From NCBI GenBank assembly GCA_030696315.1, contig JAUYSM010000053.1, positions 1 to 40,152 of the forward strand: a stretch of DNA of 40,152 nucleotides. The letters are read 5' to 3'. How positions within the stretch are numbered: position 1 is the first letter of the stretch; each line of letters begins with the position of its first letter. Source of the DNA: Pseudohongiella sp. (GTDB lineage Bacteria; Pseudomonadota; Gammaproteobacteria; Pseudomonadales; Pseudohongiellaceae). Made by a program: the position numbers and the translations under genes. Positions 13,101 through 31,724 of the stretch are shown one piece after another. Under the pieces are notes generated by a model that was not told where the DNA came from, did no database searches, and saw only the letters and a list, made by a program, of their open reading frames with translations.

Positions 13101-15093
13101 TCTGGCCTCGCTGGATCTGCTGACACCGGCAGAAAATTCCTGGCTTTTTGATCAGTGGAATCAGCGCCAGTCAGCGTATCCCACTGAAGTTACGCTATAC
13201 GACTTGTACAGTGACGCCGCCCGCCGTAATGGCGAAGGTATTGCGCTGCGCGATGAACACGGCGCGATCACGCATGTTGAATTGTATGCCCGTGTGCAAG
13301 CCGTGGCGGCCGGTTTGCTGGCCTGCGAAGATTTTGCACCCGGCGGGCGGGTGGCGTTATGGCTGCCACGCAACCGCGAGATGATTACAGGTATGTTGGC
13401 TGTGTTGGCGGCGGGTGGCAGTTATGTCGCACTTGATCCTGTTTACCCGGAAGAGCGACTGCGTTTTATCGTACAGGACAGCGCGGCGGCATTGGTATTG
13501 ACTGCTGATGCTATGCCAGCGCTGAACCTTGCTGCTCAGCAAGTTGATATCAACAGCCTGGCGAATCACGCCGCAGACCCCGGTAGCTTGCCCCGATTCC
13601 CGCAAGAATCGGCTGCCTATGTGATTTACACCTCCGGTTCCACCGGTCAGCCCAAGGGTTGCGAAATATCACATCGTAATGTCGTGCGCCTGCTGCGCAA
13701 CCAGGATCTGGATTTTGATTTTGATCACAAGGATGTCTGGATAGTTGCCCACTCGTTCTGTTTCGATTTTTCTGTGTGGGAAATGTACGGTGCGTTGCTG
13801 AACGGTGGCACGCTGGTGATTCCATCGGCGGCCGAGGTACGTAACGTCGAGACCTTTGTCGATCTCGTGGCCCGCCATCAAGTCACGGTACTGAATCAGA
13901 CACCGGCTGCGTTTTATCAATTTATCAGGGCCGCTCTAAAAAAACCTGCTACCGAACTTGCTGCCTTGCGCCTTGTTGTGTTCGGCGGTGATTCTCTTGC
14001 CTGTAACAGACTGGCACCATGGGTGGCAGCGTTTCCTGTCAGCCGTGTGAAACTGGTGAACATGTATGGCATCACAGAAACCACCGTACACGTCAGTTAC
14101 CGCGAAGTCAGCGAGGCGGATGTGCTCAATGGTTCCCATCTCAATCTGGTAGGACGGCCTTTGCCGGAAACCGGAGTATGGATTGTCGACCGCTGCGGCC
14201 AATTGCAACCACCGGGCATCGCCGGCGAGATTGTAGTCAGTGGCAGTGGTGTGGGTATGGGTTATCTGAACCGGCCGGAACTGACCGCGCGCAAATTTGC
14301 TTTGCTTGCCAGCGCCGGGAAAAACATTGCCGTAACAAACGGCGCCGACAATCAGCGCTGTTATTGGTCGGGTGATGTCGGTTATATCAGCCCGGAGCTT
14401 GGTCTGGTGTATCTGGGGCGCAACGACCATCAGGTGCAGGTGCGTGGTTTCCGCGTTGAATGTGAGGAAATCGCGCGCTGTCTTGAAAATCACCAGAGCG
14501 TCGCAGAGGCCTTGGTCATGCCGATCGAAAATACGCATGGTACAGAGCTGATTGCTTATCTGGTGGGTGATGCAACGGCTGCGCCCGCGCAGTGGCGGCC
14601 TTGGCTGTCGACACGGTTGCCGGACTACATGATTCCTGCGTATACCGTATGGCTGGATGCGCTGCCGATGACCAACAACGGAAAAATCGATCGGGCGGCA
14701 CTGCCGGATCCATTTTATCTGGTGCAAGCACCTGCAGCAGAGCCAGCAACTGACATTGAATGCATGATCATCGATGCCTGGCAGCACGTGCTGGAACATA
14801 AACAGATTGGCCCGCTGACCAACTTCTTTGAGATCGGCGGACACAGTCTGAAGGCCTTGACGCTGGTCGATGTGCTGCAGACACGTTTTGGTTTTAGCGT
14901 GAATGTAGCGGACGTTTTTGAATTCCCGACGCCACGTCAGCAAGCAGCCTTGTGTTCAAAACCCGGCTCACAGGCAAGCGCAGCAGATGACGACATTGCT
15001 GCGTTGCTGAACGCTATGGCTATTGATGATCTTGGACTCGACGCGATCGAAGCGCTGCTAGCCGATGTGTCAGACAAGCGCCGGGACAGCTGA
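5245..15093 (+). CDS. Hybrid PKS/NRPS megasynthase: ACP-aminotransferase-C-A-T-E-C-A-T
   Basis: Megasynthase of 3282 residues. Order: ACP about 6-82 (phosphopantetheine Ser S39 in LGLDSLM); class III aminotransferase about 205-625 (PLP Lys K454 in STYGK); C about 630-1043 (HH 754-755, D759); A about 1105-1590 (TSGSTG about 1257-1262, K1585); T (S1645 in GGDSI); E about 1696-2115 (H1808, H1809, D1813, then SW); C about 2150-2615 (H2292, H2293, D2297); A about 2640-3155; T (S3201 in GGHSL). The layout resembles iturin/mycosubtilin enzymes, where an aminotransferase turns the beta-ketoacyl-ACP into a beta-amino acyl group that is condensed onto the first amino acid. By-eye specificity codes are DAILTAEVVK (no confident match) and DFWNVGMVHK (threonine). 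The ACP completes the split module of the preceding KS-AT. The GTG start of the next megasynthase follows two bases after the stop. No MbtH-like gene is nearby. Confidence 0.95.
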   Translation: MSQQQSTLDAVVAIIESISGVSVSDLNRDTDLLDLGLDSLMFVRIGRVLESQYRVEISMKRFYDELSNLGALADHLAANGSPMVVAQEQPQQAAPIAGSAAAADVNTVMSAHMALMRRYLDGVAAGRHTTVPASPGLNVASTAISRPAPAPQTGNHNDAVETRKKFSGIVTQKEELSTQQRDFIGQLTARLSARCRLSKQMAEEGREYLSDWKYSLQFKQDLKELRFPVVCETASGSRFTDVDGNEYVDIAMGMGVHYFGHSPRFIDDAVRRQLESNLALGPQSRLAPDVARRICALTGHQRAAFFVTGSDAVMLALRLVRAARARDKVVMFAGAYHGICSDVLAGQGESGAVPMSPGLPTGIVNDLIVLDYDAPESLGRIRELADQLAGVLVEPVQSRNPALQPQRFLRQLRALCTELNIPLIFDEMVNGFRQAPGGMQEWFGVKADMSTYGKIIGGGYPLSVIAGNAELMQWIDGGVWHYGDNSAPLTDSIATGGTHNKHPVALAAAAAVLDHIENNPGLFLAARMRMHQLADRINVWFERNAVPLRLTYFGTQFKFESFASAFEVELFFYLLLEKGIYTWELHVANLSTEHTQEDADQLLAAIVYAVEQLRAGGFVFRADRLRRQYLPMSSVQKRLYAITQREGAEKPYHLAGAWRLRGTVDAARLEDCIHQVIIRHESLRTAFVVVDGEFYQRIIAEPRFFLDRFDAGPEAVDELLDAYIQPFNLLEPPLIRVALAAEDNGTHLLLMDVHHIVADGLSMNVVLQEILALYDGERLEPVRSQTRHVQDAITQYLAGDRAREDSRYWLETLTPFVATQETFDLSPDFSRPPVTSFAGRRIALKLDTESTAALHRFCTKSRISTFGALFAVFVAWTWRYARQRQFVVGLPGSGRPDAAADNAVGMFVNTLAFPASINEHSSVNEFLQQIRDQLFEVQAHSDYPFSALLGALNISHRANRNPLFDVMFSYENAGSRTIKTNSFDGETLTQYEGAGMFDISLDLIEAENSVLINCAYAESLFSETTMTRRIGEYLTLLETLVAGDTGTVVDWVNSAFTVPEPTPQANVGARVAMLHSGSRTATRSAAKSANVSKTASARVVPDTIYSQWKKQVASGAHTIALIEGDRQLTYAQVDNLVTETAFTLFNLYGIRAGDRVLVSLDSSIDLITAMFALFSMGAVYVPVTPDTPLARVRLILQQCDAHYLIHATGHACVPELTDSKAVECIAIEVLNKRAIATTRHQALQAPQAEDVAYVIFTSGSTGVPKGVEILHSGITNSVAWRIREYRLERADTTLQMPSAGFDASLIDILSALLSGGRLVMIDTASKRSVERIRENIEQHQVTSILLTPTLYRVLLERIPASVASLRFVTVAGEKLAPDLMQAHFARVPMVELWNEYGPTECSVVVSGGRLTPDLDRVTIGWPIPNTQVFILDEQEHPLPTGVWGRLWVSGIGLAKAYAGDELTTNNKFRCLPALGNIRCYDTGDVARLLDTGALEFKGRDDGQVKVNGYRIELDDVETALRSQLKLSEVAVSVIDKGNSASLHAWVVADAVPVAWREDLLTVLPAWMVPAALHSVASLPMLPSGKLNRRALVPPADLATTGIAADIVESLPIDNNLALLLSYCREILGRPDLKPGDNYFSAGGDSIQAIVLASRLNEAGYLLDVNELFRNPVLSDLARNIKLKGSKPGRVLPSSAVLLPTPMQLWFSSTNKGDPNAFTQAAWLRLPSGITLVQLTELCRHWAKQHAVFQDTCALSIDKLVHCTEQESGADPDAVALAAHADINLQHGPLMRLVLVRNGAQTRALVVFHHFMVDAVSWQLLQSQWAQLWADIEQGKRMRELPEGATMRQFASVLHSEEARHKALSEAPFWLAMAAACKPVFAIDNNRQKQAHQRLRLATLFDTQVAETLLATGHRVFRSRGSDLLLAAFTDAVASVCKIDAVTILMESNGRAQTYADADFSTTLGWMTSAYPLRFDSLGSGKHTKDWAEKVERVRELTMRVPEQGVGYGVLRHIIKHDALADAAPEFAFNYLGRFKHHVDVDFAMLDETPAGDRMGESGLLPALELVCFADDAGLHVSMSADAALVDSEIFEQILDTFRHQTLDLAAACQALTEPVLPSPVDFVETDWPLSEYLGLLDANSINRADVANIVPVTAMQSGLIFHARSRPDDLAYLEQVDFTLHGVEADRLALAFQRLLEEFPLLRAAFVVGSNGRTAQLIRNSVTLPVVCHDLSGLTPQQQQRVLDEARETDQLTQFDISQAPLMRVQLFTLQKPGEKLRNVPISRVHVIWTHHHLIMDGWCVGILFDRLMHCYDSDTLGADTAGANTAERVDVGNNRLNLDYFRWLAARDKSLSAGYWSTLLTGVELPTRLLPWPRLDTEPVDQRKGYQLQRHTVQLSPALTAGMRAFGASKNATLSSVIRLAWAVLLARFTNSADVVYGTVVSGRPAEVAGIDSAVGLFINTVPVRFVLDDVITANDALTLVQQQANTSRHHEYLSLAEIQAAAPDLRAREPLFDHLVVLENYPMDAALRGTDAPENDVHQSAAKSSTGADNAAAVSISDIRAYERTDLPLNLVLVPTSAGLEATFLFDAAVYPSRQIEHLAEHFVHVVQALVHAPDQALASLDLLTPAENSWLFDQWNQRQSAYPTEVTLYDLYSDAARRNGEGIALRDEHGAITHVELYARVQAVAAGLLACEDFAPGGRVALWLPRNREMITGMLAVLAAGGSYVALDPVYPEERLRFIVQDSAAALVLTADAMPALNLAAQQVDINSLANHAADPGSLPRFPQESAAYVIYTSGSTGQPKGCEISHRNVVRLLRNQDLDFDFDHKDVWIVAHSFCFDFSVWEMYGALLNGGTLVIPSAAEVRNVETFVDLVARHQVTVLNQTPAAFYQFIRAALKKPATELAALRLVVFGGDSLACNRLAPWVAAFPVSRVKLVNMYGITETTVHVSYREVSEADVLNGSHLNLVGRPLPETGVWIVDRCGQLQPPGIAGEIVVSGSGVGMGYLNRPELTARKFALLASAGKNIAVTNGADNQRCYWSGDVGYISPELGLVYLGRNDHQVQVRGFRVECEEIARCLENHQSVAEALVMPIENTHGTELIAYLVGDATAAPAQWRPWLSTRLPDYMIPAYTVWLDALPMTNNGKIDRAALPDPFYLVQAPAAEPATDIECMIIDAWQHVLEHKQIGPLTNFFEIGGHSLKALTLVDVLQTRFGFSVNVADVFEFPTPRQQAALCSKPGSQASAADDDIAALLNAMAIDDLGLDAIEALLADVSDKRRDS
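7132..11640 (+). other. NRPS module 1: C-A-T-E, D-residue of unknown identity
   Basis: The C domain has an intact HHIVADG. The A domain has IFTSGSTGVPKG, NEYGPTE, YDTGD and PSGK. My alignment to the GrsA pocket positions gives DAILTAEVVK, with the Asp that binds an alpha-amino group but no clear match to a code I know. The T domain is of the GGDSI type that usually precedes E domains. The E domain shows HHFMVDAVSW, the E4-like ESNGR with its glutamate, GWMTSAYP and FNYLG, so it is probably active and residue 1 should be D. The following C domain opens with VTAMQSGLIFH, as D-accepting C domains do. Confidence 0.85.
11680..15093 (+). other. NRPS module 2: C-A-T, threonine
   Basis: The C domain (HHLIMDG) follows an E domain and looks D-L type. 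The A domain shows YTSGSTGQPKG, NMYGITETT and NNGK. The pocket residues read DFWNVGMVHK, which matches the well-known threonine code. The T domain is GGHSL with S3201 and no E domain follows, so L-Thr is expected. A tail of about 40 residues rich in Asp and Leu after the T domain may dock to the next protein. Confidence 0.88.
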
Positions 15094-15095
15094 TC

Positions 15096-18000
15096 GTGGA
15101 CAACAAAGAGGCTTTGCGAGCGCGTCTGGAAAATCTGTCGCCTGAACAGCGCGCAGCGCTGCTGCAGCAGATTTCCCGCTTGCGTGAGCAACAGGAGCGG
15201 CAACAGGCTCCGCAGGCAATCGGGCAACAAGCACAGCCTCAGGGCCAACAGACAGATCCGCAAACGCTGCGGCAACAAGGTAGTCACGCAGCTGGATCGC
15301 CTTATCCACTGAGTCTGGCGCAGCGTCGTCTGTGGATGCTGTCCCAGATGGGCAATGACGCCAGCGCAGCCTACAACATTGCAGCCGCATTCTGTTTTGA
15401 TAACGCTCTGGAGCCTGAGCGGCTTCAGCGTGCATGGCGCAAGCTGCTTGCCAGCCATGAGGTGCTCAGATCGGCGTTTACGCACGAAGACAACGCGCTG
15501 TTGCAGATGCCGCGCGCGGCCGATGACTGGAAAATGCACACGCGTAAGCTGGCGGCGGAACACGATGTGGACACACAATTGCTGCAATTGGCCAGCGAAG
15601 AAGCCGCCATACCCTTCGACCTGCAGCAGGACTGGTTGATCAGGGTGATTTACTGCGAGAGCGCTGCCGGAGCTGCGGGTCTTGTTGTTGTGATCCATCA
15701 CATCGTCTGTGATGGTCTGTCGATTACCAGCATGATCCGCGAGCTGGCACAGTACTACGGAGAGGCCGGGGCCCTGGAAGCTGCTGCTGCCTTGCCCAGC
15801 CGCCTGCAATTCCGCGACTACGTAGAATACGAAACCCGCGCTGACAACAGCAAAGCCAGAACTTACTGGAAACACATCTTCGCAAGTCCGCCCGAGACGC
15901 TGGATGCGCTGCCGGATCTGCCAAGACCGGTATTAAAAGATTTCAGTGGCCGCTCGGTTGCGTTGACGCTGCCCACTGCAGACGCTGCTGCCTTCGAAGG
16001 TTTTTGTCATGCGCACAATGCCACCTTGTATATGGGTCTTGTGGCACTGGTACAACTGCTGCTGGCACGTTTTGCAAATGTCGGCGAAGTGACACTGGGT
16101 ACACCGGTCGCCGGCAGGCCGGGCGCACAGTTCGACAAGGTAGTCGGTCCTTTTGTAAACACCATTGCTTTGCGCCAGACCATTGATCGCACTAAAACCT
16201 TTCCGGAACTGCTGATGCAGGTACGTCGCAGCGTGCTGGAAGGTTTTCAGAACCAGGGGCTGGCATTTGATGAGGTGGTGACTGAGTTGGGTTTTGCCAA
16301 AGATCCCAGCCGATCGCCTTTATATGATGTGATGCTCGGGCTTACCTCAGCCGACGATCAGCGTCTGAGTTTCAGTGGCACTCCGGGCGCAGAAAGCACG
16401 GGTGCTGCCGTTCGGGAGGGTGACATTGTCGGCCGCGCGTTGCGAATTCCGCTGGCATTCAGCAAGGTCGATCTGACGTTCCACTTCGAGAAGGGCAGTG
16501 ACGGCAGCCTGCGCCTTGATCTGGAATACGCCAGCGGCATCCTGCTCGAAGCAACTGCGCAGCGTTTGTGTGAAGCATGGCACCTGTTGACTATTGAATT
16601 GCCACAACAGCCTTTGCGTAAACTGGGTGAGTTTGCGTTGCAGAGCGTTGAAGATCGCAGTTTATTGCTGGAGCAGGTAAATGCTACAGCGCGGCCTTAT
16701 CCACAGCACGCGACCCTTGTTGAAGAGTTCCGCAAGTCTGTGCAGAGAGCACCCGACGCCATTGCCGTTCATGCCGGCGAAGTGCAGCTGAGTTATGGTC
16801 ATCTTGATCAGTTATCCGATGAACTGGCTCAACTCATTGTGCATCAGCCTGCATACACGGCCGGTTGCCGCATTGCATTGATGCTCGAGAAGGACGAACG
16901 TGCGCTGATTGTCATTCTCGCCATTCTGAAAACACGTAGCGTTTATGTGCCACTTGCCGCCAACACACCTTTGGAACGCGTGGCAGATGTTGTTGAGGCA
17001 GGCGAAGTGCGATTGCTGTTTGCGGAAACAAACCGCATAAGAGAGTTGCACCCGTTGGGTATTGTGTTGATGGATACGGATGCGCTGTTACGTGGTAGCG
17101 CAGCAGATCGCGCTATCTCAACGGCTGCTACTGGTAAAGCGAGTAATGTGCGGCCGTTCACCCCCAAAAGTGCTGGCACTACACCTGCGCCGCCCGAACC
17201 TGCATACCTGATGTTTACGTCCGGATCGACGGGCAAACCCAAGGGCACACTGATCGATCAGCATGCTGTGCTCAGGTTGGTGTGTAATACCGATTACCAT
17301 CAGGTACAGGCTGAAGAGCGCGTATTGCTGACCGGTTCGCTTGCCTTTGATGCGGCCACATTTGAAATCTGGGGCCCTTTACTCAATGGCGGTTGTGTTT
17401 GTATTCCGGCCGGCACCACCTTGCTGGAAGTGCATGAGTTTCAGGCGCTGGTAGATCACTACCAGATAGATACTGCATTCCTCACCACGGGCCTGTTTAA
17501 CCAGCTCGTCGACAACAGTGCGGCGGCTTTTTCCAGATTACAAACCGTGCTCACCGGCGGCGAAAAAATTTCTGTCGAGCACGTCAGAAAACTGAAGCAG
17601 GCGCAGCCCGCTTTAAACGTGCTGCATGTCTACGGCCCGACCGAAAACACAACTTTTTCAACCTGGCACCGCATTACTGCGGACGACCTGGCGCAGGCTA
17701 CCATTCCGATTGGCAGGCCGATTGCCAACAGTCGTATTTATTTGCTGGATCAGAATATGCAGCCGGTACCGATTGGTGTGCCCGGCGAGATTTATTGCGG
17801 CGGTGACGGCATTGCACGTGGTTACATCAACCAACAGTCTGGTGGCCTCAACGGGCAGCGGGAGGCATTTCTGCCTGATCCGTTTGTGGACGCCGGTACC
17901 GGTCGTTTGTACAGAACCGGTGATCTCGCCAAATGGAATCAAAAACGCGAGTTGATATTTCTTGGGCGTAATGACCGGCAAGTAAAAGTGCGTGGTTTCC

Positions 18001-21000
18001 GTGTTGAACTGGGTGAAGTGGAATATCACCTGCGTACTTTGCCCGGTGTTTCTGACGCATTTGTGCAGGCGCGTGGAGAGGCGGGTATCAGTGAATTGCT
18101 CGCCTGGCTTGTTGTACCAACCGGAAGCGCTGTCAGTGTTGCTGATGTTCGCGAAGCTTTAAAAAGCAATGTACCGAATTATATGCTGCCGGCTAAAGTT
18201 GTGTGTCTGCAGCGACTGCCGTTGAATGCCAGCGGCAAAGTTGATGTCAGTGCGCTGCCGCTGCCCGAAGACGCGGACGATCAAACGGCTGGCCAACAAC
18301 ACACTCTATTGCAAACAAAACCAGAACAAGATCTGGCACGTTTGTACGCCACGGTGCTTGGTCTGGCGGGGAATGCCATACACTGCATCGATCGCGACGC
18401 CAATTTCTTTTCTTTGGGCGGCGATTCCATCCGTGCCATTCAACTGGTGTCACTGGCCCGGTCTGAGGGTTATCACTTTACGCTCAAGGATATCTTTGCT
18501 TCGGAAACTCTGGCTGGCCTGGCCGCAGCGGCAACCGTTGTGCCGCGCGTTGCAACTGAGTTTGTGCTGGGTTCCGGACCGATGAGTCCCACGCAGTTAT
18601 GGTGGCTGGATCAGACCGGCGCGCCTGCCAACCACTTTAATTTGTCCAGCGTGTTCAGAGTCGCAGAGCCTGTTGACGTAACTGTTTTGCGCGCGGCGCT
18701 CGATGACTTGCTGGCACTGCATCCGGCGCTGCGTCTGACATTGGACATGCAAACGCACCAGCAAAGTATTCGGGACAAGGGACATTATGTGCTGCGTGAA
18801 TTTGCCGCCGGGCAATCGCGACAGCAATGCTGGCAGGAACTGCAGCACGCCATTGACCTTGAATCGGGCGTTCTGCTTGCCGTGGGTGTGGCTTCGCAGG
18901 CGGAGGTAAGCTACCTGGCGATTGTGGTCCACCATATTGCGGCAGATGAAGTTTCCGGCCGCTTGTTTGCGGAAAATTTGCAGCGGCTCTATCACAAGCA
19001 CCTGACACAAAGGCTTCAGACCGCCCAGCCTGGCAGCATAAGTAATGTCATGCAACAGCCCGTGCAGGAAGCACTGGGCCTCATCAACTGGGCTGCTCAG
19101 CTGAAGGCAACGGTAGAGCGCGGGGCGATGGATAGCGATCTTACCTACTGGCAGGACGCTGTCGCACGCGGCCGTAAAATGCTTGATCAACAGCAACTTC
19201 TGTTCAGCAATCTGCAGTCAACACGCGGCGCAGCACAACAAACGCTGTCGCGCGACGAGACGCAGACACTGCTACAGTTGGGCGCTGCGCAGCTGCGCAC
19301 AACGCCGCAGGAGTTGCTGCTGTCGGCCTTTATCAGAGCATGGCAGCGCATACTGGGTGAGGCGGATTGTGTCTTTTCTCTGGAAGGCCACGGACGCGAA
19401 CCGTTCGAAGGCCTGGGTGATAGCAGCTCGACCATGGGCTGGTTCACCTCCTTGTACCCCTTTGTGTTCTCCAGCGCTTCTCTCGGCAGTTTTGTCAGCA
19501 GTTCTGTCAGCAGTTCTGAAAAAGCAACTCCGCAGTTTTTTGATCTCTACCGCGAAGTAAAAGACTGTGTCAGACGTTTGCCATTCAAAGGTTTTACCTA
19601 TCTGCCTCTGCGTTATTACAGCAGTGAACAGGTGCGGACCACGCTGATGCTCAAGCCGCAACTCAGTTTTAATTACCTCGGCGAAACGGTTGCCGATCAG
19701 GACGCATGGCTGAGTGCTGCGCTTGAGCCGGCCGGTGACGACCATGGGGTAGATGTTGCCGAACCGTTTAAACTCGACGTGCTCGCACGCATCACCGACG
19801 GTCAGTTTGAACTGACATTGCGTGGGTATGAGCCGCGCCGCCGCATTGCCGGCGATCAGGAGCCTGGCAAAACAACTGCAGGCGACATGGTAGCGCTTGA
19901 TGCCCTCGCCGCAGCGTGGCTGCAAGAACTTGCTACACTTGCGACGCGTCTGAAGGAAACCGCCGCAGGTCAGTTCACCGATGGCTACCTGTTGTCACTA
20001 TCCGATAGTCTGGTGGCTTTTGCTTCACTTGCAGAGCTCGATGCCACGCTCGCTGCGCTGCGTCTGCCAGCTGCAAGTATTGAAGAAATTCTGCCTCTGA
20101 CCGGGATGCAGTCGGGCATGTGGTTGCACTGCGCGACACATCCGACGGCGTATCAGGATCAGGTTGCGCTGCGCCTGCATCAGCCGCTTGACGCAGCACG
20201 TTTTGAGGCAGCCGCAGGTGCGCTGGTGGCGGAAACCCAGGCCCTTCGCACCGGTTTCGCACAAACACCGCATGGCGAACTGCTGCAGATTATTTTCCGT
20301 GAGCGAACGGGCAACTTTTATTACATTGATCGCTCCGACAGCGGCACGGCATCAAGTAATGAGTTTGAGCATGACCTGGCCCGGTTGCGCGTATCGCTAC
20401 GCAGTAAAGCCAGAGACCTGTTGTGCGATCCGCTGTTTAACCTGACTCTGGTACGTATCAACAACAGTTGCTTCGAACTCGTTATCGATTTCCATCATAT
20501 GGCAATTGATGGTTGGACCAGCGCACGGTTGTTGCAGAGGCTGGAAGCACTTTACTTTTTTGAAAGCAATGCAGACACCAGCCGTGGGATGCGATCGTAT
20601 TTCGAATGGATGGGCCGGCAGCCGCAAGCGAGTGCCAGAAACTATTGGCAGACCTTGTTAGGGGATTATCAAGGTCGTAGTGATATACCCACGCACCTGC
20701 CAAGAATTCCTGCTGAACAACCCGCACCGTTGTTTGTAGAGGTCCGCACAGGTGCTGCGCTGCATGGCGACCTGATTATTTGGTGTGAGCAACATGGCCT
20801 CACCATCAATGCTGTTGTGCAGGCTTTGTGGGGAGTATTTCTTGGACGTCTGACAGGCAGCGACGACATTGTGTTTGGTGCCACAGTATCCGGTCGTGAT
20901 ATCGACCTGCCAGGTGTCGGCAATATTGCAGGCATGTTGATCAACACCTTGCCCGTGCGCATCAGAGTTGGAGACGCAACAGTATTTGCTGAACTGGTGC

Positions 21001-24000
21001 GTGATACCGCGCAGCAATTTGCTGAAAGCATGAGCTTTGGTCATCTGACGCTGGCAGAAATCCAGACCTTATCGCCGGCGCGTGCCGGACTCGTCACGCA
21101 CGCGCTGGTATTTGAAAATTATCCTGCATCTGACTCGGTTTCACGCTGGCAATGGCAGCCGCAGGAAATATTTGATCCCATGCACTTTGAGTTTGGCTTG
21201 ATTGTCGCACCCTTAAGCAAGGACCTCAGTTTCCGTTTTGTAGCCGATGGCAGTCTGTATCTGCAGGACAGGCTGGAAAAAATGGGTGCGGATTTGTGCG
21301 CGCTGTTGGCCGGGTTGCTGGATACTCAGCAATCACTCAATACACTGCCCAGCACAGGTGCCAGAGCTTGGTCAGTATCGGCCAATTTCACTGCGGACAG
21401 CATGGTCGGCTTGCTGCAGTATCACGAATACATCAGCGGCAATTCAGGCGCAGTCACGTTGTTGCCCTACGACCAGACTGTGCAGGAGTTGATCAATCCG
21501 AACTCACGGCTCAGGCGCCTGCAACCACAGCATCATGTTGTGTTGTGGCGCCCGGTGACTGACGAACATGGCCGCATTATGGAGTCCGCCGCCTCCGCAC
21601 AGTTAACGGAGCTTGCTGCTGCGCTGGCGGTTTATGTCCGTGCCTGTCCGCGCAGCCATCTGTTTTTTGTGCCCTGTCCCTGGTCGGACTGCAATTGGAC
21701 CGTGTACCGTGAATTGTTGGCGTATGCCAGAGGCGCACTTGCAGGCGTTTACAACGCGGACGTGCTGGGTCTTGAGGACCTTGCCGATACCTATGCGCTG
21801 GCGGAGCCCTGTTTTCCGCCAGCGCTTGTTTTTGGTGACATCCCTTACACAGAAGCATTTTTCGCCGCTGTTGCAAACAGGCTCGTCAGACAACGCGATC
21901 TGCAAATCAGAAGACCTGTAAAAGTGTATGTTGTTGATGCAGACGACACACTGTGGGGTGGCATCGTGGGCGAGGAGGGTGTGCATGGCATCAGACTTGA
22001 TCGCGTACACATGCGCTTGCAACAACAGTTACTTGCTGCGCGCGCGGCTGGTGCGCTCATATGTCTGGCAACCAAAAACAATGAAGACGATGTGCGTGCG
22101 GTATTCGAGCAGCGTGACATGCCCTTACGCTGGAACCACCTGACGCGGGTGTGCGCCAGCTGGGGTCCAAAGTCTGCCAGTATTCTGACCCTTGCCGATG
22201 ATCTGTCGCTGGGTCTGGACAGTTTTGTGTTTATTGACGACAGCCCGCTGGAGTGCGAGCAGGTGCTGGCTGCCTGTCCGGGCGTGCTGGCCATTCAGCT
22301 GCCGCCGGCGCAGGATCGCGACGTATTTCTGAATCACCTCTGGCTGCTTGATGCCCGTGCTGCAACCCGTGAGGATGCTGCGCGCGCGCAGATGTATGCT
22401 GAGGAGCTGCAGCGAGCCAGTGCAAAAAAGGCAACCGCGAGCTATGAAGAGTTCCTGTTGTCGCTCGATATCCAAGTTGATATGCGCAAACTGACTCAGG
22501 ATGATTTGTCGCGTACGGCGCAATTGTCCCAGCGCACAAATCAGTTCAATACCACCGGCATCCGTTACCTGGAAGCAGAACTCACCAGCCTGCTCCAGGA
22601 TGCTGATACCGATATCCGCTGCATCAGTGTGACAGACAAGTACGGCGATTATGGACTGACCGGCAGTGTATTCATCCGGCGTGGTCCGCAGGCATGGACA
22701 GTATTTGGTCTGATGCTCAGTTGCCGGGTGCTGGGTCGCGGTGTTGAGCATTCCATCCTGCGGGCGCTGGCACAGGAAGCCGCAATAAGTGGCGTTGATG
22801 AGCTGCGCGTGGACTTTGTCAGACTCGCGCGTAATGCCCCCGCGCTGCAATTTCTGCAAAGCATCACAGCCACATCTTCAGCCGGGCAGCCGGGTGCTGC
22901 AGCCTGGCAATTCTGTCTGCCGGTCGCTGAGTCATCCCGGTGGTTGCCAGGCACAGATGACAGTGGCAGTGACGAGTCTCATGCAGAAAGTACGATAGGT
23001 ACTGAAGAACCCAAGCCTGTTGCTGTCGACACCCTGCACTTGTCTGCCAGAACATCACGCTACTACCGTCATCTTGCAGGTACTCTGAACTGTGGTACTG
23101 CGATATTGCAACAAATGCAGCAGCAGGGCGTTATTCAGAAGACCGGGACTGGCGAAGGCCATGCTGCACAAAAAACCAGGCCGGGCACGCCCACTGAGTT
23201 GACGCTTGCCGGTTTTTTCACTGAACTGCTGGGGCACGCGGAAATATCTAGGGAGGATACATTCTATGATCTCGGTGGTCACAGCCTTAAAGCGATGATG
23301 CTGTTTTCGCGCATTGCCGCGCGCTACGGGCTGACCCTGGACTTCCGGGATCTGCAGGCGCATCCGTCGCTGGCCGGGCTGGCTGCGCGAATCGATGCCG
23401 ATGTGTTTGTTGCTGACAATCGGGTTATTGACAACGGAGCAGCGCAAGCGCCGGTGCTGAAGGTTTTGCCAATGTCCGACAGCTATCCAGTTTCGCCCGG
23501 ACAATCGCGCTTGTGGATGGTGGAAAATATTCGCTCTGCAGGGCCTTCGCCGTTTCATATGCACGCCACGCTGACGGTGGAAGGACAGATAGACCGGCAG
23601 GCTCTGAATCTGGCGCTCATACATTTGTATCAAGGTCACGAAGCTCTGCGCACCTGCTTCCGGGAAAACGCCGACGGTGCGCTCAGACAGGTGATTGTGC
23701 CGGTCTCAACTATAAAAACCAGTGCGCGTTGGATACAAGGCGTGTTGGACGACACCAAGCTGGATGCAATGGCACAGCAAGAAAACGCCATCGCCTTTGA
23801 TCTGAGCAAAGCGCCTCTGATTCGCATTTCTGCCGGTGAATTGACGTCAGGTCGGCAGGTGCTTTTTATCACCATGCATCACATCATCAGTGATGGCTGG
23901 TCGATCGGTATTTTTTCCCGTGAGTTAAGCGATCTTTACCTGAAAGCCAGCGAAGGCCAGCTTGCGGTTCATACTGAAGATCAGGCACACATCGAGCGTC

Positions 24001-27000
24001 TGCAGTTCCGGGATTTCGCCAGTTGGCAGTTGCAATGGCTGGACTCGGAGGCGGGATCACGCGCGGCACAGTTCTGGCAAGAACACTTTGCACGTCCGCT
24101 TGAAGCGCTGCAGCTACCGGCTGCCGCACCCAGGCCGGCGCTGATGCAGAGTCAAGGCGCTTCGGTCCAGCTTGATATTGAGGCAGCAGTCTGGACACCC
24201 TTCACACAATCCCTGGCGACGCTGGGCATCGGTAATTTTGCTGGCTTGTTTGCAGCAGTGCAGCTTGTGCTTTCCCGGCTTTCCGGACAGCAGAATTTTT
24301 GTATCGGCACAGCGGTGGCGGGCAGGCAGCATCAGCAGTTGGAATCAGTGATTGGTTTTTTTGTGAACATACTGCCGCTCAGAACGACCGTGAACCCGGA
24401 TAATGACGTTGCCGCTTTTTTGCGGTCTGTGGCAACAGAGGTCAAAAACTGCCTGTCACATCAGAGTGTGCCATTTGACAGGATTGTCTCTGGTCTGAAC
24501 CTGGCCAGAGATCCTGGTCGCACGCCCTTGTTTGACGTGCTGTTAGTGCTGCAGAACACAGACATTGAAGACCTGCGATTCGGTGCACATGTCGCCGGGG
24601 TGCATGAGCTGGCATCTACTACCAGTCAGTACGACCTTACCCTGAGTGCCTTCCCTGCAGCCGACGGGACACTGAAGCTGATTGCAGAATACGACAGCGT
24701 CATTTATTCGGCTGCAAATATCAATCTGATCCTGCGTTGTGTTGATCGGGTCATTAAAGGCCTTACTGATAGTCAAAGTAAAAAACTGGTACAAGTGCCA
24801 TGGCTGCAGGAGAGCGATCTTGCACGCGTTCAGAGTTTTGAAGGTTCTGAACCTGACAAAGAAGTGGTCGACAGCAAACAGACGTGGCTACCCGCGTTGT
24901 TCAGCCATGTGGCCGCGACGGCGACAGGCAGGATCAGCGACACCGTGGTTGACTGGTCTTACGCTGAACTCGATGCGGAAATGCAGCGCATAAGTGCGCT
25001 GCTTTTTGCTGCGATACCAGACTCAAGCCATAAACAGACTCATATTGGCGTGATTGGCAAGCGCAGCGCGCGCAGTATTGCTGCGATGCTCGGTGTGATG
25101 AATGCAGGCGCAATCTACATACCACTGGATATGGGCAACCCGGTAGACAGGTTGCAAATGATCATCCTCGAAGGTGCAGTTGATATTCTGCTGAGTACAG
25201 ACGAGCCGGGGGCAGAACTTGCCAGCGTATTGACGCAAAAGCTCCATGTTCAGCTTCCTGCGTTACAACATCGGCACTATACCGATGTGCCTGACCACAC
25301 ACGCTGCGATCTGGTAAAGCGCAGCGACGCCGATATCGCCTACATGATTTTTACGTCGGGATCGACCGGCAAACCCAAAGGTGTGCAGATTTCCCATGCA
25401 GCATTTGCTGCAATGATAGAACAACAGATACCTGCATTTGATGTCAGACACGATGATGTGTGCGCACAATTTGCTGCGCTGACATTTGATGCCTCGCTGT
25501 CGGAAATATTCCTCGCATTGGGTACCGGCGCGTCGCTGGCAATCGCCCCGGATGAAACACGCAGTGACATTGAGCTGTTTATGCGTTGGTTGTGTGACAA
25601 AAAAATCAGCGTGATCACACTGCCGCCCGTATTCCTGCGCGCGCTCGACAAACGGCCACTTTGCAACCTTCGTGTACTGATCACCGCAGGGGAGGCGGCC
25701 ATTGCTGCAGATATGCGGCACTACGCGGCGTCGCTACGGGTGATAAATGCCTATGGCCCGACTGAAACGTCGGTGTGCGCCAGCACCTATGTGGTGAAGG
25801 AACAGGATGAATGGCCTTTTGGTGTGCCTATCGGCAAACCGCTGCCCGGGGTATTGCTGAGTGTGCGCGACGCCACCGGTGCGCGTGTTCCGGTGGGCAG
25901 TGCCGGTGAGTTGTACATTGGTGGTGCAACGCTGGCTGCAGGATATTATGCGGCGCCCGAGCTCAGCGCACAGAAATTTAAATCCATTCCCGGCGAGCCG
26001 GCACAAAGCCGTTGGTATCGCTCCGGAGATCTGGTGCGCTGGCGTGAAGACGGTCTGCTGGAATACCTTGGTCGCACGGATACACAAATCAAAATACGGG
26101 GATATCGTATTGAACCTGGTGAGATCGAACATGCCGCGCGTAGCGTCGACGGCGTCAGCGATGCGATTGCGCTTGTTCATCCGGAATTGGGGCTGATGTT
26201 GGTTTGCCTGGTTCCATCAGCTCAGACGGTGGGTGACACGCCATTAAAATCGAAGATTCAGGCAGAGCTTGGTAGAACCTTACCGCGCCATATGGTTCCC
26301 GGTGTTCTGTTGTTACTGGATGTCTTTCCGCTGTCCTCTGCAGGAAAGATCGATCGCGCTGCATTGCTTGAATTTGCCTCCGTACATGCCCTATCCCCGA
26401 ACGCCGGATTTGTGGCACCTGTTACAGACGCAGAACACATTCTTGCCCAAGCCTGGCAGCGTGTACTCAAGACCGAACGTGTGGGTCGCCATGATGATTT
26501 TTTTGCCTTGGGCGGCGATTCGATCAAAGCGTTGGCAGTCATCAATACACTCAGGTCAAAAGGCTATAGCTGCACATTAAAGGACTTCTTTGCCTCTGCG
26601 CTGTTAGCAGAGTTGGCGACGATGATATTGCCTTGGCGTGCGCCTGAAGAACACCACAAACCACTTGTCGGCAACATCGCTTTGCTGCCAATACAAAAAT
26701 GGTTTTTACGTTCACGCGACACGCAAACAGCTGCGCATTTCAATATTGTGACTGAACTGAAAATGCCACGCGGTGTTTCAGTCAAGTTGTTGAAGAAAGC
26801 CCTGTCTGCGCTTATACAAAATCACGATTCCCTGCGCGCGTGTTTTTACCAGCAGGACGGTAGTTGGATACAGCAAATACGGGAATCGCTCGATGTAGAT
26901 GAAGTGCTCACTTGTTATCAGCGCACATGTGCAAACATGCAGCAAGCCGATGATCTGGCAATTGAAGAACTCGCCTGTTCCCCCTTTGCACTGGCAACAG

Positions 27001-27974
27001 GGCCTTTGTTCCGCTGCGTGCTGGTACAGGGAATAAATGGCGACAGCGAGTCGCTGGTGCTGTCACTGCATCACCTGATCGCCGATTGGGTATCACTGCG
27101 TATTCTGATTGCAGACCTCAATGCACTGACACGGGCCTTGCTGGCAAGCGCAGTTGAAGACAGTGCATTTGATAATGAGGAGTTTTTGTCATCGCACCTC
27201 AGACCACAACATTTGCTTGCAGAAATCACAGCGGCGCGCTCGGCGGAACAAGTCGAAATACCGCCAGCACTGTCAGATAGTTACCAAAGAGCGGTGTGCA
27301 CCATGGATACACTGGCGCTTGATTGCGGCACGCATGGTGAATTGGAAACTCTGCATCTGCAGATTGAAGCTACTGGGCTGACGAGACTGCGAGAAGCTTT
27401 GCGCAGAATGTCAGAACAGCTGCACACCGATTTCAAACTGCAGGATCTGCTGTTGGCAACGGCTCTCAGTGAACTGGGTGACATGCTACCTATTAAGGAA
27501 ATACCGATTATGGTGGAAAGTCACGGTCGCGATGGTGATCTGGATCTGACTCATCAGGTAGCCTGGCTGACTCGCGCACGTCTGTTTAATGTTGATACCG
27601 ACGTGTTCAAGGGCTCTGATGCTCTGCTACAGGCGAGTCGTATGCTAAAGTCAGATACCCGTTTTCAGCCGGATATATTTGCCTGTGTGGCTGCTGAACC
27701 CACCTTGCGTGGGGCGCTGCCAGCGCTGTTGAGTTTCAATTATCTTGGTGAGTTTTCTGATAATCTGGACACCAATCAGTTATTCAGCCTGACCGGTAAA
27801 GTATTTGAAAAGGCCATGGCGTTGACGTCGCCCGTCGATGTTCCTCTGCATATGGAGTTTTATGTTGTAGATTACGCACTGGAAATGCACATTGCGTGGC
27901 CACCGGGTTTGTTTGAGTCGGAGACCATGCGCACTTGCTGGCAAAGGGTACGGCGCAGACTCGCTAGCTACTGA
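15096..27974 (+). CDS. NRPS megasynthase with internal FkbH domain: C-A-T-E-C-FkbH-T-C-A-T-E
   Basis: Megasynthase of 4292 residues from a GTG start two bases after the previous stop. The N-terminus (residues 1-65) is a charged helix plus a Gln-rich linker, probably for docking. Order: C about 68-500 (H201, H202, D206); A about 545-1055; T (S1111); E about 1160-1630 (H1279, H1280, D1284); C about 1660-2090 (H1800, H1801, D1805); FkbH region about 2092-2595 (motif I D2281/D2283, motif III D2381-D2382, candidate Cys C2543); T (S2730); C about 2795-3230 (H2928, H2929, D2933); A about 3265-3755; T (S3809); E about 3865-4292 (H3992, H3993, D3997). By-eye codes are DAFFLGVTFK (Ile-like) and DASTIAAVCK (Tyr-like). 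The fourth module of the line has FkbH in place of A. There is no terminal TE or reductase; the protein ends within an E domain. Release must come from another protein. Confidence 0.95.
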   Translation: MDNKEALRARLENLSPEQRAALLQQISRLREQQERQQAPQAIGQQAQPQGQQTDPQTLRQQGSHAAGSPYPLSLAQRRLWMLSQMGNDASAAYNIAAAFCFDNALEPERLQRAWRKLLASHEVLRSAFTHEDNALLQMPRAADDWKMHTRKLAAEHDVDTQLLQLASEEAAIPFDLQQDWLIRVIYCESAAGAAGLVVVIHHIVCDGLSITSMIRELAQYYGEAGALEAAAALPSRLQFRDYVEYETRADNSKARTYWKHIFASPPETLDALPDLPRPVLKDFSGRSVALTLPTADAAAFEGFCHAHNATLYMGLVALVQLLLARFANVGEVTLGTPVAGRPGAQFDKVVGPFVNTIALRQTIDRTKTFPELLMQVRRSVLEGFQNQGLAFDEVVTELGFAKDPSRSPLYDVMLGLTSADDQRLSFSGTPGAESTGAAVREGDIVGRALRIPLAFSKVDLTFHFEKGSDGSLRLDLEYASGILLEATAQRLCEAWHLLTIELPQQPLRKLGEFALQSVEDRSLLLEQVNATARPYPQHATLVEEFRKSVQRAPDAIAVHAGEVQLSYGHLDQLSDELAQLIVHQPAYTAGCRIALMLEKDERALIVILAILKTRSVYVPLAANTPLERVADVVEAGEVRLLFAETNRIRELHPLGIVLMDTDALLRGSAADRAISTAATGKASNVRPFTPKSAGTTPAPPEPAYLMFTSGSTGKPKGTLIDQHAVLRLVCNTDYHQVQAEERVLLTGSLAFDAATFEIWGPLLNGGCVCIPAGTTLLEVHEFQALVDHYQIDTAFLTTGLFNQLVDNSAAAFSRLQTVLTGGEKISVEHVRKLKQAQPALNVLHVYGPTENTTFSTWHRITADDLAQATIPIGRPIANSRIYLLDQNMQPVPIGVPGEIYCGGDGIARGYINQQSGGLNGQREAFLPDPFVDAGTGRLYRTGDLAKWNQKRELIFLGRNDRQVKVRGFRVELGEVEYHLRTLPGVSDAFVQARGEAGISELLAWLVVPTGSAVSVADVREALKSNVPNYMLPAKVVCLQRLPLNASGKVDVSALPLPEDADDQTAGQQHTLLQTKPEQDLARLYATVLGLAGNAIHCIDRDANFFSLGGDSIRAIQLVSLARSEGYHFTLKDIFASETLAGLAAAATVVPRVATEFVLGSGPMSPTQLWWLDQTGAPANHFNLSSVFRVAEPVDVTVLRAALDDLLALHPALRLTLDMQTHQQSIRDKGHYVLREFAAGQSRQQCWQELQHAIDLESGVLLAVGVASQAEVSYLAIVVHHIAADEVSGRLFAENLQRLYHKHLTQRLQTAQPGSISNVMQQPVQEALGLINWAAQLKATVERGAMDSDLTYWQDAVARGRKMLDQQQLLFSNLQSTRGAAQQTLSRDETQTLLQLGAAQLRTTPQELLLSAFIRAWQRILGEADCVFSLEGHGREPFEGLGDSSSTMGWFTSLYPFVFSSASLGSFVSSSVSSSEKATPQFFDLYREVKDCVRRLPFKGFTYLPLRYYSSEQVRTTLMLKPQLSFNYLGETVADQDAWLSAALEPAGDDHGVDVAEPFKLDVLARITDGQFELTLRGYEPRRRIAGDQEPGKTTAGDMVALDALAAAWLQELATLATRLKETAAGQFTDGYLLSLSDSLVAFASLAELDATLAALRLPAASIEEILPLTGMQSGMWLHCATHPTAYQDQVALRLHQPLDAARFEAAAGALVAETQALRTGFAQTPHGELLQIIFRERTGNFYYIDRSDSGTASSNEFEHDLARLRVSLRSKARDLLCDPLFNLTLVRINNSCFELVIDFHHMAIDGWTSARLLQRLEALYFFESNADTSRGMRSYFEWMGRQPQASARNYWQTLLGDYQGRSDIPTHLPRIPAEQPAPLFVEVRTGAALHGDLIIWCEQHGLTINAVVQALWGVFLGRLTGSDDIVFGATVSGRDIDLPGVGNIAGMLINTLPVRIRVGDATVFAELVRDTAQQFAESMSFGHLTLAEIQTLSPARAGLVTHALVFENYPASDSVSRWQWQPQEIFDPMHFEFGLIVAPLSKDLSFRFVADGSLYLQDRLEKMGADLCALLAGLLDTQQSLNTLPSTGARAWSVSANFTADSMVGLLQYHEYISGNSGAVTLLPYDQTVQELINPNSRLRRLQPQHHVVLWRPVTDEHGRIMESAASAQLTELAAALAVYVRACPRSHLFFVPCPWSDCNWTVYRELLAYARGALAGVYNADVLGLEDLADTYALAEPCFPPALVFGDIPYTEAFFAAVANRLVRQRDLQIRRPVKVYVVDADDTLWGGIVGEEGVHGIRLDRVHMRLQQQLLAARAAGALICLATKNNEDDVRAVFEQRDMPLRWNHLTRVCASWGPKSASILTLADDLSLGLDSFVFIDDSPLECEQVLAACPGVLAIQLPPAQDRDVFLNHLWLLDARAATREDAARAQMYAEELQRASAKKATASYEEFLLSLDIQVDMRKLTQDDLSRTAQLSQRTNQFNTTGIRYLEAELTSLLQDADTDIRCISVTDKYGDYGLTGSVFIRRGPQAWTVFGLMLSCRVLGRGVEHSILRALAQEAAISGVDELRVDFVRLARNAPALQFLQSITATSSAGQPGAAAWQFCLPVAESSRWLPGTDDSGSDESHAESTIGTEEPKPVAVDTLHLSARTSRYYRHLAGTLNCGTAILQQMQQQGVIQKTGTGEGHAAQKTRPGTPTELTLAGFFTELLGHAEISREDTFYDLGGHSLKAMMLFSRIAARYGLTLDFRDLQAHPSLAGLAARIDADVFVADNRVIDNGAAQAPVLKVLPMSDSYPVSPGQSRLWMVENIRSAGPSPFHMHATLTVEGQIDRQALNLALIHLYQGHEALRTCFRENADGALRQVIVPVSTIKTSARWIQGVLDDTKLDAMAQQENAIAFDLSKAPLIRISAGELTSGRQVLFITMHHIISDGWSIGIFSRELSDLYLKASEGQLAVHTEDQAHIERLQFRDFASWQLQWLDSEAGSRAAQFWQEHFARPLEALQLPAAAPRPALMQSQGASVQLDIEAAVWTPFTQSLATLGIGNFAGLFAAVQLVLSRLSGQQNFCIGTAVAGRQHQQLESVIGFFVNILPLRTTVNPDNDVAAFLRSVATEVKNCLSHQSVPFDRIVSGLNLARDPGRTPLFDVLLVLQNTDIEDLRFGAHVAGVHELASTTSQYDLTLSAFPAADGTLKLIAEYDSVIYSAANINLILRCVDRVIKGLTDSQSKKLVQVPWLQESDLARVQSFEGSEPDKEVVDSKQTWLPALFSHVAATATGRISDTVVDWSYAELDAEMQRISALLFAAIPDSSHKQTHIGVIGKRSARSIAAMLGVMNAGAIYIPLDMGNPVDRLQMIILEGAVDILLSTDEPGAELASVLTQKLHVQLPALQHRHYTDVPDHTRCDLVKRSDADIAYMIFTSGSTGKPKGVQISHAAFAAMIEQQIPAFDVRHDDVCAQFAALTFDASLSEIFLALGTGASLAIAPDETRSDIELFMRWLCDKKISVITLPPVFLRALDKRPLCNLRVLITAGEAAIAADMRHYAASLRVINAYGPTETSVCASTYVVKEQDEWPFGVPIGKPLPGVLLSVRDATGARVPVGSAGELYIGGATLAAGYYAAPELSAQKFKSIPGEPAQSRWYRSGDLVRWREDGLLEYLGRTDTQIKIRGYRIEPGEIEHAARSVDGVSDAIALVHPELGLMLVCLVPSAQTVGDTPLKSKIQAELGRTLPRHMVPGVLLLLDVFPLSSAGKIDRAALLEFASVHALSPNAGFVAPVTDAEHILAQAWQRVLKTERVGRHDDFFALGGDSIKALAVINTLRSKGYSCTLKDFFASALLAELATMILPWRAPEEHHKPLVGNIALLPIQKWFLRSRDTQTAAHFNIVTELKMPRGVSVKLLKKALSALIQNHDSLRACFYQQDGSWIQQIRESLDVDEVLTCYQRTCANMQQADDLAIEELACSPFALATGPLFRCVLVQGINGDSESLVLSLHHLIADWVSLRILIADLNALTRALLASAVEDSAFDNEEFLSSHLRPQHLLAEITAARSAEQVEIPPALSDSYQRAVCTMDTLALDCGTHGELETLHLQIEATGLTRLREALRRMSEQLHTDFKLQDLLLATALSELGDMLPIKEIPIMVESHGRDGDLDLTHQVAWLTRARLFNVDTDVFKGSDALLQASRMLKSDTRFQPDIFACVAAEPTLRGALPALLSFNYLGEFSDNLDTNQLFSLTGKVFEKAMALTSPVDVPLHMEFYVVDYALEMHIAWPPGLFESETMRTCWQRVRRRLASY
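15285..20000 (+). other. NRPS module 3: C-A-T-E, isoleucine-like D-residue
   Basis: The C domain is LCL type (SLAQRRLWML, HHIVCDG), as expected after L-Thr. The A domain reads MFTSGSTGKPKG, HVYGPTENT and NASGK. The pocket code DAFFLGVTFK is closest to isoleucine codes, and valine is possible. The T domain is GGDSI (S1111). The E domain keeps HH and D (HHIAAD), EGHGRE, GWFTSLYP and FNYLG. However, the residues after the motif are EVSG rather than the common GVSW, so activity is likely but not certain. Confidence 0.83.
20075..23400 (+). other. NRPS module 4: C-FkbH-T, predicted glyceric acid insertion
   Basis: An intact C domain (FHHMAIDGW) is followed by a region of about 500 residues with the long FkbH architecture instead of an adenylation domain. 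An N-terminal part (from SANFTAD) precedes the HAD domain (VDADDTLWGG, LATKNN, FIDDSP), then the C-terminal part (LSQRTNQFNTTG, VTDKYGDYG, LSCRVLGRG). A T domain with S2730 in GGHSLK comes next. No A-domain core motif occurs between the C and T domains. FkbH domains load glyceryl groups from 1,3-bisphosphoglycerate onto carrier domains. The expected reaction is glyceryl loading on this T domain, then attack of a glyceryl hydroxyl on the upstream D-residue thioester. The ester product is inference. Confidence 0.85.
23470..27971 (+). other. NRPS module 5: C-A-T-E, tyrosine-like D-residue, terminal E
   Basis: The C domain is intact (HHIISDGWS). The A domain shows IFTSGSTGKPKG, NAYGPTETS and SSAGK. 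The pocket code DASTIAAVCK fits tyrosine, and phenylalanine is the main alternative. The T domain is GGDSI (S3809). The final domain has E-type signatures: PIQKWF, HHLIADWVS, ESHGRD and LSFNYLG. Its E5 region reads AWLTRARLF where GWFTSxYP is usual. The polypeptide ends about 55 residues after its last core segment with no TE. Confidence 0.82.
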
Positions 27975-31211: not shown

Positions 31212-31724
31212 ATGGATACTAAAAATCAAGCTAACAGCGAAGCCTCTATCGAAAATCAGGTAGAAATCCAGGATGTTGAAAAGTCTGAGCGACTGGATAA
31301 AGCTTCAGCGATTATTTCGAATAAATGCAAGTGGAGCGCTGCGGCAGGTTTTATTCCTGTCCCTTATCTTGATCTGGCTGGCCTTGCTGCTGTTCAGGTG
31401 AAGATGGTCAGTGATCTGTCACAGCTGTATGGCAAAACAGTACAACAGGAAGCCATCAAGACCACCGTTGCAGCGATGTTAGGCACACTTGCGACAGCGG
31501 GTCTTGCCGCGCCAGTTGCTTTTTCAACATTGAAGGTTGTGCCTGGTTTAGGTGCTGTTGCCGGTGGACTGAGCCTGGGCGCTTTGGGTGCTGCCGCGAC
31601 ATACGCTGTCGGAAAAGTATTTGTCAATCATTTCGAAGGTGGTGGCTCGCTGGCAAACTTCGATGTCGACAAAATCAAAGACGATCTGAAGAGTGCGTTT
31701 ACGTCTAAATCAGCCAAGGCGTAA
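31212..31724 (+). CDS. DUF697-like inner-membrane protein
   Basis: Protein of 170 residues. A charged N-terminus of about 40 residues is followed by a cysteine-containing segment and the pattern FIPVPYLDLAGLAAVQVKM with a downstream QLYGK, which resembles DUF697/YcjF-type domains. Two or three hydrophobic Ala/Gly-rich helices follow, about residues 75-140, then a charged tail. The ATG has a good AAGGAG site seven bases upstream. A GC-rich hairpin follows the stop. The function of this family is not established. The gap of 151 bases and a promoter-like element suggest it is not part of the biosynthetic operon. Confidence 0.75.
   Translation: MDTKNQANSEASIENQVEIQDVEKSERLDKASAIISNKCKWSAAAGFIPVPYLDLAGLAAVQVKMVSDLSQLYGKTVQQEAIKTTVAAMLGTLATAGLAAPVAFSTLKVVPGLGAVAGGLSLGALGAAATYAVGKVFVNHFEGGGSLANFDVDKIKDDLKSAFTSKSAKA

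Follow-up and report, generated by a model that had tools for sequence, protein, structure and literature searches.

The closest described relative of the system considered here is the cystomanamide synthetase of Cystobacter fuscus (Etzbach 2014, as reviewed in PMC9581180). Its line is given in the accessible text of PMC9581180 as (C-A-T-E)(C-C-A-T)(C-A-T-E)(C-FkbH-T)(C-A-T-E-TE) (C, condensation; A, adenylation; T, carrier; E, epimerisation; TE, thioesterase domain), for the sequence Asn-Asn-Phe-glycerate-Tyr, and section 10 of that text presents cystomanamide B as the only one that keeps glycerate and Tyr, cystomanamides A, C and D being without both. The precedent for an ester on an FkbH-loaded glycerate is vioprolide, in the available parts of PMC8949500 and PMC10099666; according to the latter, the ester-linked fatty acid of vioprolide is removed during maturation, and the same removal, with a periplasmic hydrolase, is proposed for corramycin. 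Here we describe a locus of Pseudohongiella sp. carried by contig JAUYSM010000053.1 (assembly GCA_030696315.1), the whole stretch of 40,152 nucleotides being called the window. In the second of its non-ribosomal peptide synthetases (NRPS), NRPS2, the fourth module of the line is a C-FkbH-T unit (C4-FkbH-T4, 20075-23400) which, to judge from its sequence, very probably loads glyceryl and forms an ester.

The cystomanamide synthetase, as far as its source describes it, and the window share five modules with E in the first, third and fifth, C-FkbH-PCP (PCP, peptidyl carrier protein) as the fourth, Tyr in the fifth and a beta-amino fatty acyl start. They differ in that the window has Thr-type and Ile/Val-like codes at modules 2 and 3 rather than Asn-Asn-Phe over modules 1 to 3, lacks C-C at module 2 and adds an extender-type FkbH cassette; a neighbouring S12 hydrolase gene is given as a feature of the window, the cystomanamide cluster being known to us by review alone. 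The window line is the same kind of machine for a different peptide. An earlier reading of the sequence alone (the sequence-only reading) had held this arrangement to be nearly unknown, which does not stand: C-FkbH-PCP is the fourth of five cystomanamide modules in the accessible text of PMC9581180, so the mid-chain architecture was already published and the window is a further member. VioA (vioprolide) and ComK (corramycin), in what their sources describe, also have C-FkbH-T with an ester on glycerate, and FAAL occurs in their systems and in the clusters of window relatives alike. Their FkbH module, however, is the second and receives a fatty acid, whereas that of the window is the fourth and would receive a peptide predicted to be D-ended. 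BurF (malleicyprol) resembles the window by its C, its N-terminal FkbH extension (named 'NEX' in the available text of PMC12304814) and its T, and its C forms the ester, an active-site mutant being reported there; unlike the window, it has FkbH catalytic parts thought to be lost and a reductase end.

NRPS2 is a single open frame of 4292 aa (15096-27971). Searches with Pfam, NCBIfam and our own profiles gave the domain order C-A-T-E-C-FkbH-T-C-A-T-E, with 5 Condensation, 2 AMP-binding and 3 PP-binding stretches by Pfam; the domains whose positions follow lie on the forward strand. C4 (aa ~1650-2100, 20043-21395) carries the motif FHHMAIDG from aa 1799. Next comes the NEX (aa 2119-2265, 21450-21890), which aligned with those of other assembly-line FkbHs, and then the FkbH phosphatase/glyceryl transferase (aa 2275-2592, 21918-22871), matched by TIGR01686 of NCBIfam with 292.6 bits against a cut-off of 146.65. 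A structure model of both (aa 2116-2610) had a mean pLDDT of 82.8 and a pTM of 0.60. All the residues named in the sequence-only reading, D2281, D2283, D2381, D2382 and C2543, proved exact in the alignment (columns D10, D12, D110, D111 and C272, offset 2271) and are invariant in 6 aligned FkbHs; in a 9-row alignment column D111 varies, being N in the Latescibacterota locus L041. T4 (23217-23387, PP-binding) carries LGGHSL from aa 2726, with Ser 2730, so that C and T are intact, as had been claimed; the carrier motif is GGHS in T4, before C, and GGDS in the T domains before E. No A domain was found by Pfam or our own profiles between C and T (aa 2708-2766), in agreement with the same reading, and a hidden A domain in module 4 was rejected on this basis. 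The mid-chain position was likewise confirmed, three NRPS modules preceding the unit and module 5 (C5-A5-T5-E5, 23484-27965, by Pfam and our own profiles) following it.

By analogy with its family, the module 4 FkbH would take D-glyceryl from 1,3-bisphosphoglycerate through its HAD half and pass it via Cys2543 to T4. C4 would then couple to a glyceryl hydroxyl, as an ester, the peptidyl chain delivered by module 3, whose E3 domain (18576-19895, assigned from the domain scheme and the motifs HHIAADE and NYLG) makes a D residue the predicted donor. C5 would add Tyr and E5 convert it to D.

That C4 condenses, as the sequence-only reading had assumed, is upheld by a tree that groups it with condensing C domains. 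It falls, with support 100/99, in a set of 13 rows together with C2 domains that follow E1: the set comprises C4 and C2 of three window-group genomes, L041, L045, L252, L255, L257, L258 and one C domain of L273 that does not precede FkbH. This tree omits 26 of 102 rows (11 long branches, 5 rows of genome G013 and 10 near copies), and the C-before-FkbH long branches left out are L044, L059, L259 and L280. The nearest solved chains of C4 are McyB, bacitracin synthase 3 and tyrocidine synthase 2. Chain 4znm, which we take to be SgcC5, is absent from the 37 hits of C4 (E 1e-5), yet matches C5 at 8.8e-22. Motif, tree and nearest chains ruled out an E or a non-condensing domain at this place. A single ester-forming clade for all C domains before FkbH was also rejected, since the 25 rows imply 7 changes, of which starred branches force 4 or more. 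The type of C domain seems to track the donor and not the hydroxyl that receives it, which would make C4 an ester-forming domain of after-E type.

FkbH was found in 12 of the 144 genomes searched (own included), and both cluster FkbHs in 8 of those 12; G121 is a possible ninth, its second match being below the cut-off. FkbH-containing frames of 4205-4329 aa occur in 5 other relatives, two more being cut short, and the domain order of NRPS2 is identical in all 5 full-length relatives: the layout is conserved and not due to chance. The C4 motif HH...DG and the T4 motif LGGHSL are intact in the six full-length sequences, window included. Compared with G014, FkbH has a dN/dS of 0.089, the lowest among seven segments (0.15-0.28 for the rest). 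With G013 and G053 the synonymous differences approach or exceed saturation, and there FkbH does not clearly stand lowest. We examined in this light whether FkbH or C4 might be inactive or differently employed, the chain skipping module 4 or FkbH loading a non-glyceryl unit. The C4 type, which differs from known ester-forming C domains, would fit such a case, but the intact motifs, the low dN/dS with G014, the presence of the same unit in other bacterial groups and the glycerate of cystomanamide B make it very unlikely.

The A domain codes of the window are DAILTAEVVK, DFWNVGMVHK and DAFFLGVTFK for modules 1, 2 and 3, and DASTIAAVCK for module 5. In all seven window-group rows A5 reads DASTIAAVCK or DASTVAAVCK and A2 DFWNVGMVHK or DFWNIGMVHK. 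We take the DAST code to be Tyr-type, the module 2 code Thr-type and the module 3 code Ile/Val-like. Wherever an after-E-type C precedes FkbH and the next A domain is readable, the code is DAST(I/V/L)AAVCK (13 of 13 rows: 7 of the window group, L045, L252, L255, L256, L257 and L258, with G011, G014 and G039 placed by orthology and L256 and G013 by a quick C tree); L041, L284 and L285 are on the after-E side as well, yet their contigs end before the A domain. By comparison, 9 other A domains that follow FkbH-T-C all lack the code (L043, L249, L250, L260, L267, L269, L278, L280 and L281, L260 having no C before FkbH), the nearest being DAWTIAAICK in L281. A possible exception is L280, absent from the main C tree, whose C is on the after-E side of the quick tree (support 88, drawn open, long branch) and whose code is DGTISAEVLK. 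An E domain follows the Tyr-type module in all 13 clusters, with a TE after it in Balneolales; the Tyr should therefore be D. The predicted chain would be alpha-hydroxy-beta-amino acyl - D-X - Thr - D-(Ile/Val-like) - O-glyceryl - D-Tyr. A literature text search found no papers carrying the three DAST code variants. In L045/G512 (Balneolales), whose proteins are 2086 and 3843 aa long, an A domain is missing from modules 1 and 3, which are C-T-E; ahead of the FkbH module a sole amino-acid A domain was seen, with the presumably Asn-like code DLTKIGEVGK, and it alone may load three T domains.

The cluster contains a second, stand-alone FkbH (1171-2223, forward strand, TIGR01686 258.6 bits) which, like the hydrolase gene, was absent from the sequence-only reading. 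In a tree of 89 FkbHs, the 49 assembly-line rows, with which three FkbH-T proteins placed among them are counted, all fall to the same side of a branch supported at 100/97, as do the 12 extender-type short stand-alone rows, including 1171-2223, for another branch supported at 100/100. The module 4 FkbH sits in the assembly-line clade, so the two cluster FkbHs belong to separate clades, an extender-unit maker and an assembly-line loader. From family knowledge, the genes beside the stand-alone FkbH presumably form a hydroxymalonyl/methoxymalonyl-acyl carrier protein (ACP) cassette, of which 1171-2223 is the kind of FkbH expected. The small ACP of the cassette was found in 4 of 4 relatives and its dehydrogenases were identified by Pfam in the window (acyl-CoA; 98-1171, forward strand, near the contig end) and in G053 (acyl-CoA and 3-hydroxyacyl-CoA); no O-methyltransferase was among the Pfam hits of the window and G053 clusters. 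We infer that the stand-alone FkbH makes hydroxymalonyl-ACP for the polyketide start, in which case glycerate would be used twice by the cluster, as extender unit and as residue 4. An extender cassette (FkbH, small ACP, dehydrogenases) is also present at L031:14782-17120, within the cluster of an assembly-line FkbH, and in G552 and G577 a stand-alone FkbH and both dehydrogenases adjoin the FkbH NRPS.

Several observations weigh against reading the window as a cystomanamide-type line with an ester-forming module 4. C4 does not group with the LCL or SgcC5-type, to which the ester-forming C domains characterised so far mostly belong in the available text of PMC12304814. No TE domain was found in NRPS2, which ends in E (Pfam, own profiles), in contrast to the cis TE of the cystomanamide line and the TE of the Balneolales cluster. 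The reading of the A codes follows a background numbering, and no paper carrying the three DAST variants was found. Finally, searches of 310, 13, 108 and 7 myxobacterial genomes (overlapping groups) did not turn up the cystomanamide cluster itself. We take the terminal cis TE to be a variable feature: Balneolales has one, and L252 and L255-L258 end in E.

A gene of the S12 family (PF00144; 28004-30118 in the window, forward strand) was detected in 12 of the 13 Tyr-type clusters. It directly adjoins the NRPS gene (stop-to-stop frames at most 100 bases apart) in 7 of 7 window-group clusters and lies at most 300 bases from it, on differing sides, in G318a, G552, G577 and G558; in Balneolales it is 21.3 kb upstream, ahead of the first synthetase gene. 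G635 has no S12 gene in a sequence that covers only 423 bases past its NRPS gene, and none was found in L041, L284 and L285, on short or cut stretches. Pfam identified PF00144 in the S12 proteins of the window, L252, L255, L256, L258 and Balneolales. As 11 of the 12 proteins had gone into our own S12 profile, their scores with it are circular; the Balneolales protein, outside the set, scored 193.7 bits. Among 24 other C-FkbH loci (three contigs below 4.3 kb, the rest flanked by some 1-21 kb on either side, several being near copies), one S12 gene was found, by Pfam and a broader profile and missed by our own. This protein (L280:4153-5733, PF00144, 96.8 bits), from a Paenibacillales genome, has no signal peptide visible by eye; its gene lies 4.6 kb upstream of the one for a C-FkbH-T-C-A-T protein. 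In 74 control FkbH loci neither profile, the broader one run with E values to 0.01, found an S12 gene.

The SxxK, YSN and HxG motifs are present in 12 of 12 aligned S12 sequences, and the N-termini of the window's group, G552/G577, G558, G318 and G512 look by eye like signal peptides or lipoboxes. The nearest solved kin of the window protein are a D-Ala-D-Ala carboxypeptidase (1cef, 2.1e-39) and an alkaline D-peptidase (4y7p, 5.8e-33), that of G318a being an alkaline D-peptidase (1e-59); ClbP is far more distant from the window protein (1e-11). The S12 proteins are kin of D-specific peptidases, and D-stereospecificity is predicted for them. Enzymes of the DD-carboxypeptidase/D-peptidase kind acylate themselves with D residues. 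Because of this partner gene, of the cystomanamides A, C and D without glycerate-Tyr and of the maturation of vioprolide and corramycin, we tentatively suggest that D-X-O-glyceryl-D-Tyr may be a tail cut outside the cytoplasm by a secreted D-specific S12 enzyme. The latter would cleave the ester after export, or use the acyl-enzyme for ring closure on the beta-amine. Colibactin is made as an N-terminal D-Asn prodrug cleaved by the S12 peptidase ClbP, and the glyceryl-D-Tyr tail would be a C-terminal counterpart of that logic, common to the window's group and Balneolales. The S12 gene of L280 lowers the odds of such a cleavable tail. No paper linking the glyceryl-Tyr unit to an S12 hydrolase was found, in a literature lacking most subscription journals. 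In L252 (G318 C75), S12 and C-FkbH-T-C-A(Tyr)-T-E stand beside an outer-membrane efflux gene, followed by UvrD and AAA genes; our own profiles found no other NRPS or PKS (polyketide synthase) gene on this contig.

Alternatively, the glyceryl ester could be retained for good, the end product being a lipodepsipeptide, either linear or cyclic and then perhaps closed via the beta-amino group, with S12 serving another purpose. Cystomanamide B, which retains glycerate and Tyr in the accessible text of PMC9581180, is in line with this, and the architecture, with a free beta-amine at the start, would permit ring closure. Three of the four cystomanamides in the same text are nevertheless without glycerate-Tyr, the vioprolide fatty acid is removed and the same is proposed for corramycin (available part of PMC10099666), and a gene for D-specific kin accompanies 12 of 13 Tyr-type clusters; a lasting ester is a possibility that we regard as somewhat doubtful. 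Of the ester and depsipeptide put forward in the sequence-only reading, the ester stands as the likely bond, while the conserved hydrolase gene suggests that it may not survive in the final product; as a whole that reading is partly supported.

A role of S12 in self-resistance, destroying the product in the periplasm, would suit an enzyme that is extracytoplasmic by eye and of D-specific kin. It is unlikely, for it fails to explain why S12 is paired with the Tyr-type FkbH unit and, L280 apart, not with other FkbH lines. The missing TE of NRPS2 raised a further alternative, in which S12 would be a trans thioesterase of the penicillin-binding-protein (PBP) type, SurE-like, that would free the chain, with its D-Tyr end, from T5. 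Thioesterases of this type share the Pfam family of S12 and use substrates that end in a D residue; chain 6ksu, presumably SurE, matches at 9.6e-16. However, the export suggested by the signal peptides or lipoboxes read by eye would keep S12 away from the cytoplasmic T5, the nearest kin are DD-carboxypeptidase and D-peptidases and not SurE, and in the Balneolales cluster an S12 protein accompanies a cis TE, all of which renders this role highly improbable.

The rarity assumed for C-FkbH-T was contradicted by our survey, in which FkbH had a C domain immediately ahead of it in 33 more cases outside the window's group, some being near copies. Of the best 80 among at least 558 confirmed FkbH loci, 5 had C directly before FkbH: Latescibacterota L041, Cohnella L043, the betaproteobacterium L044, Balneolales L045 and Motilimonas L059. 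Surveys of whole genomes found FkbH in 25 of 369, 58 of 398, 40 of 310 and 34 of 296 (sets partly overlapping; E limits 1e-20, 1e-20, 1e-60 and 1e-60, respectively), and 40 stretches from them, mostly ones with large frames, were examined. Donors ahead of C-FkbH vary. A polyketide carrier domain precedes 13 of the 33, and the donor is a polyketide in most Paenibacillales loci; L267 (A-T-C-A-T-C-A-T-C-A-T-C-FkbH-T-C-A-T-E) has a peptide donor, and so do L041 and L045, both with a T-E end just upstream. When 335 genomes from the phylum of the Balneolales genome were searched (E up to 1e-100), FkbH turned up, apart from the known genome, in four, none with C before FkbH and none with an S12 gene in the stretches examined, so that no new positive case emerged. 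In L274-L277 and L279 (Paenibacillales), a polyketide module is followed by C-FkbH-T as last domains, with an extender-type FkbH gene beside it, and release is perhaps tetronate-like. L264 and L265 (Myxococcota) have FkbH-T followed by a reductase-type NAD_binding_4 domain. L249 and L250 have a polyketide synthase, with five T domains in tandem in L250, ahead of C-FkbH-T-C-A-T-E (codes DVENVGVITK and DVENVGGITK), and no S12 gene was found near them.

The best explanation of the surroundings is that the window carries most of a cystomanamide-type lipopeptide cluster, which is incomplete at its left side because the window is the whole contig. After the extender cassette come, on the forward strand, a KS-AT polyketide module (2223-5234, Pfam and own profiles) and NRPS1 (5245-15090; ACP-aminotransferase-C-A-T-E-C-A-T by Pfam/NCBIfam and own profiles), in which PF00202 with PP-binding marks an aminotransferase and points to a beta-amino acyl start. 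Downstream of NRPS2, in the same order in the window and G053, are the S12 gene, an alpha/beta hydrolase gene (30125-31057, forward strand, Pfam), a DUF697 gene (31212-31721) and a porin-like gene; the alpha/beta hydrolase is a candidate trans release enzyme, NRPS2 ending in E without TE. G053 supplies the left part, with an ABC exporter, an SPFH protein and FAAL-ACP-KS-AT-DH-KR-ACP, then 3-hydroxyacyl-CoA dehydrogenase, small ACP, acyl-CoA dehydrogenase, stand-alone FkbH, KS-AT and the NRPS1-like and NRPS2-like genes; similar-sized frames stand in the same order in G006, G013 and G014. DUF697 and SPFH genes also lie beside the FkbH NRPS in L255 and L256, from another bacterial family. No Rfam matches were found in the window at gathering scores.

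Mid-chain FkbH modules are a recurring route to an ester within a peptide, and distant bacteria have kept one form of them, glyceryl followed by a Tyr-type module that ends in E. Should S12 indeed remove the tail, this would account for most cystomanamides being without it and would provide a genome-mining handle, namely an FkbH module, a Tyr code and a secreted S12 enzyme, as well as a peptide tail that is genetically encoded and can be cleaved, of use in engineering.

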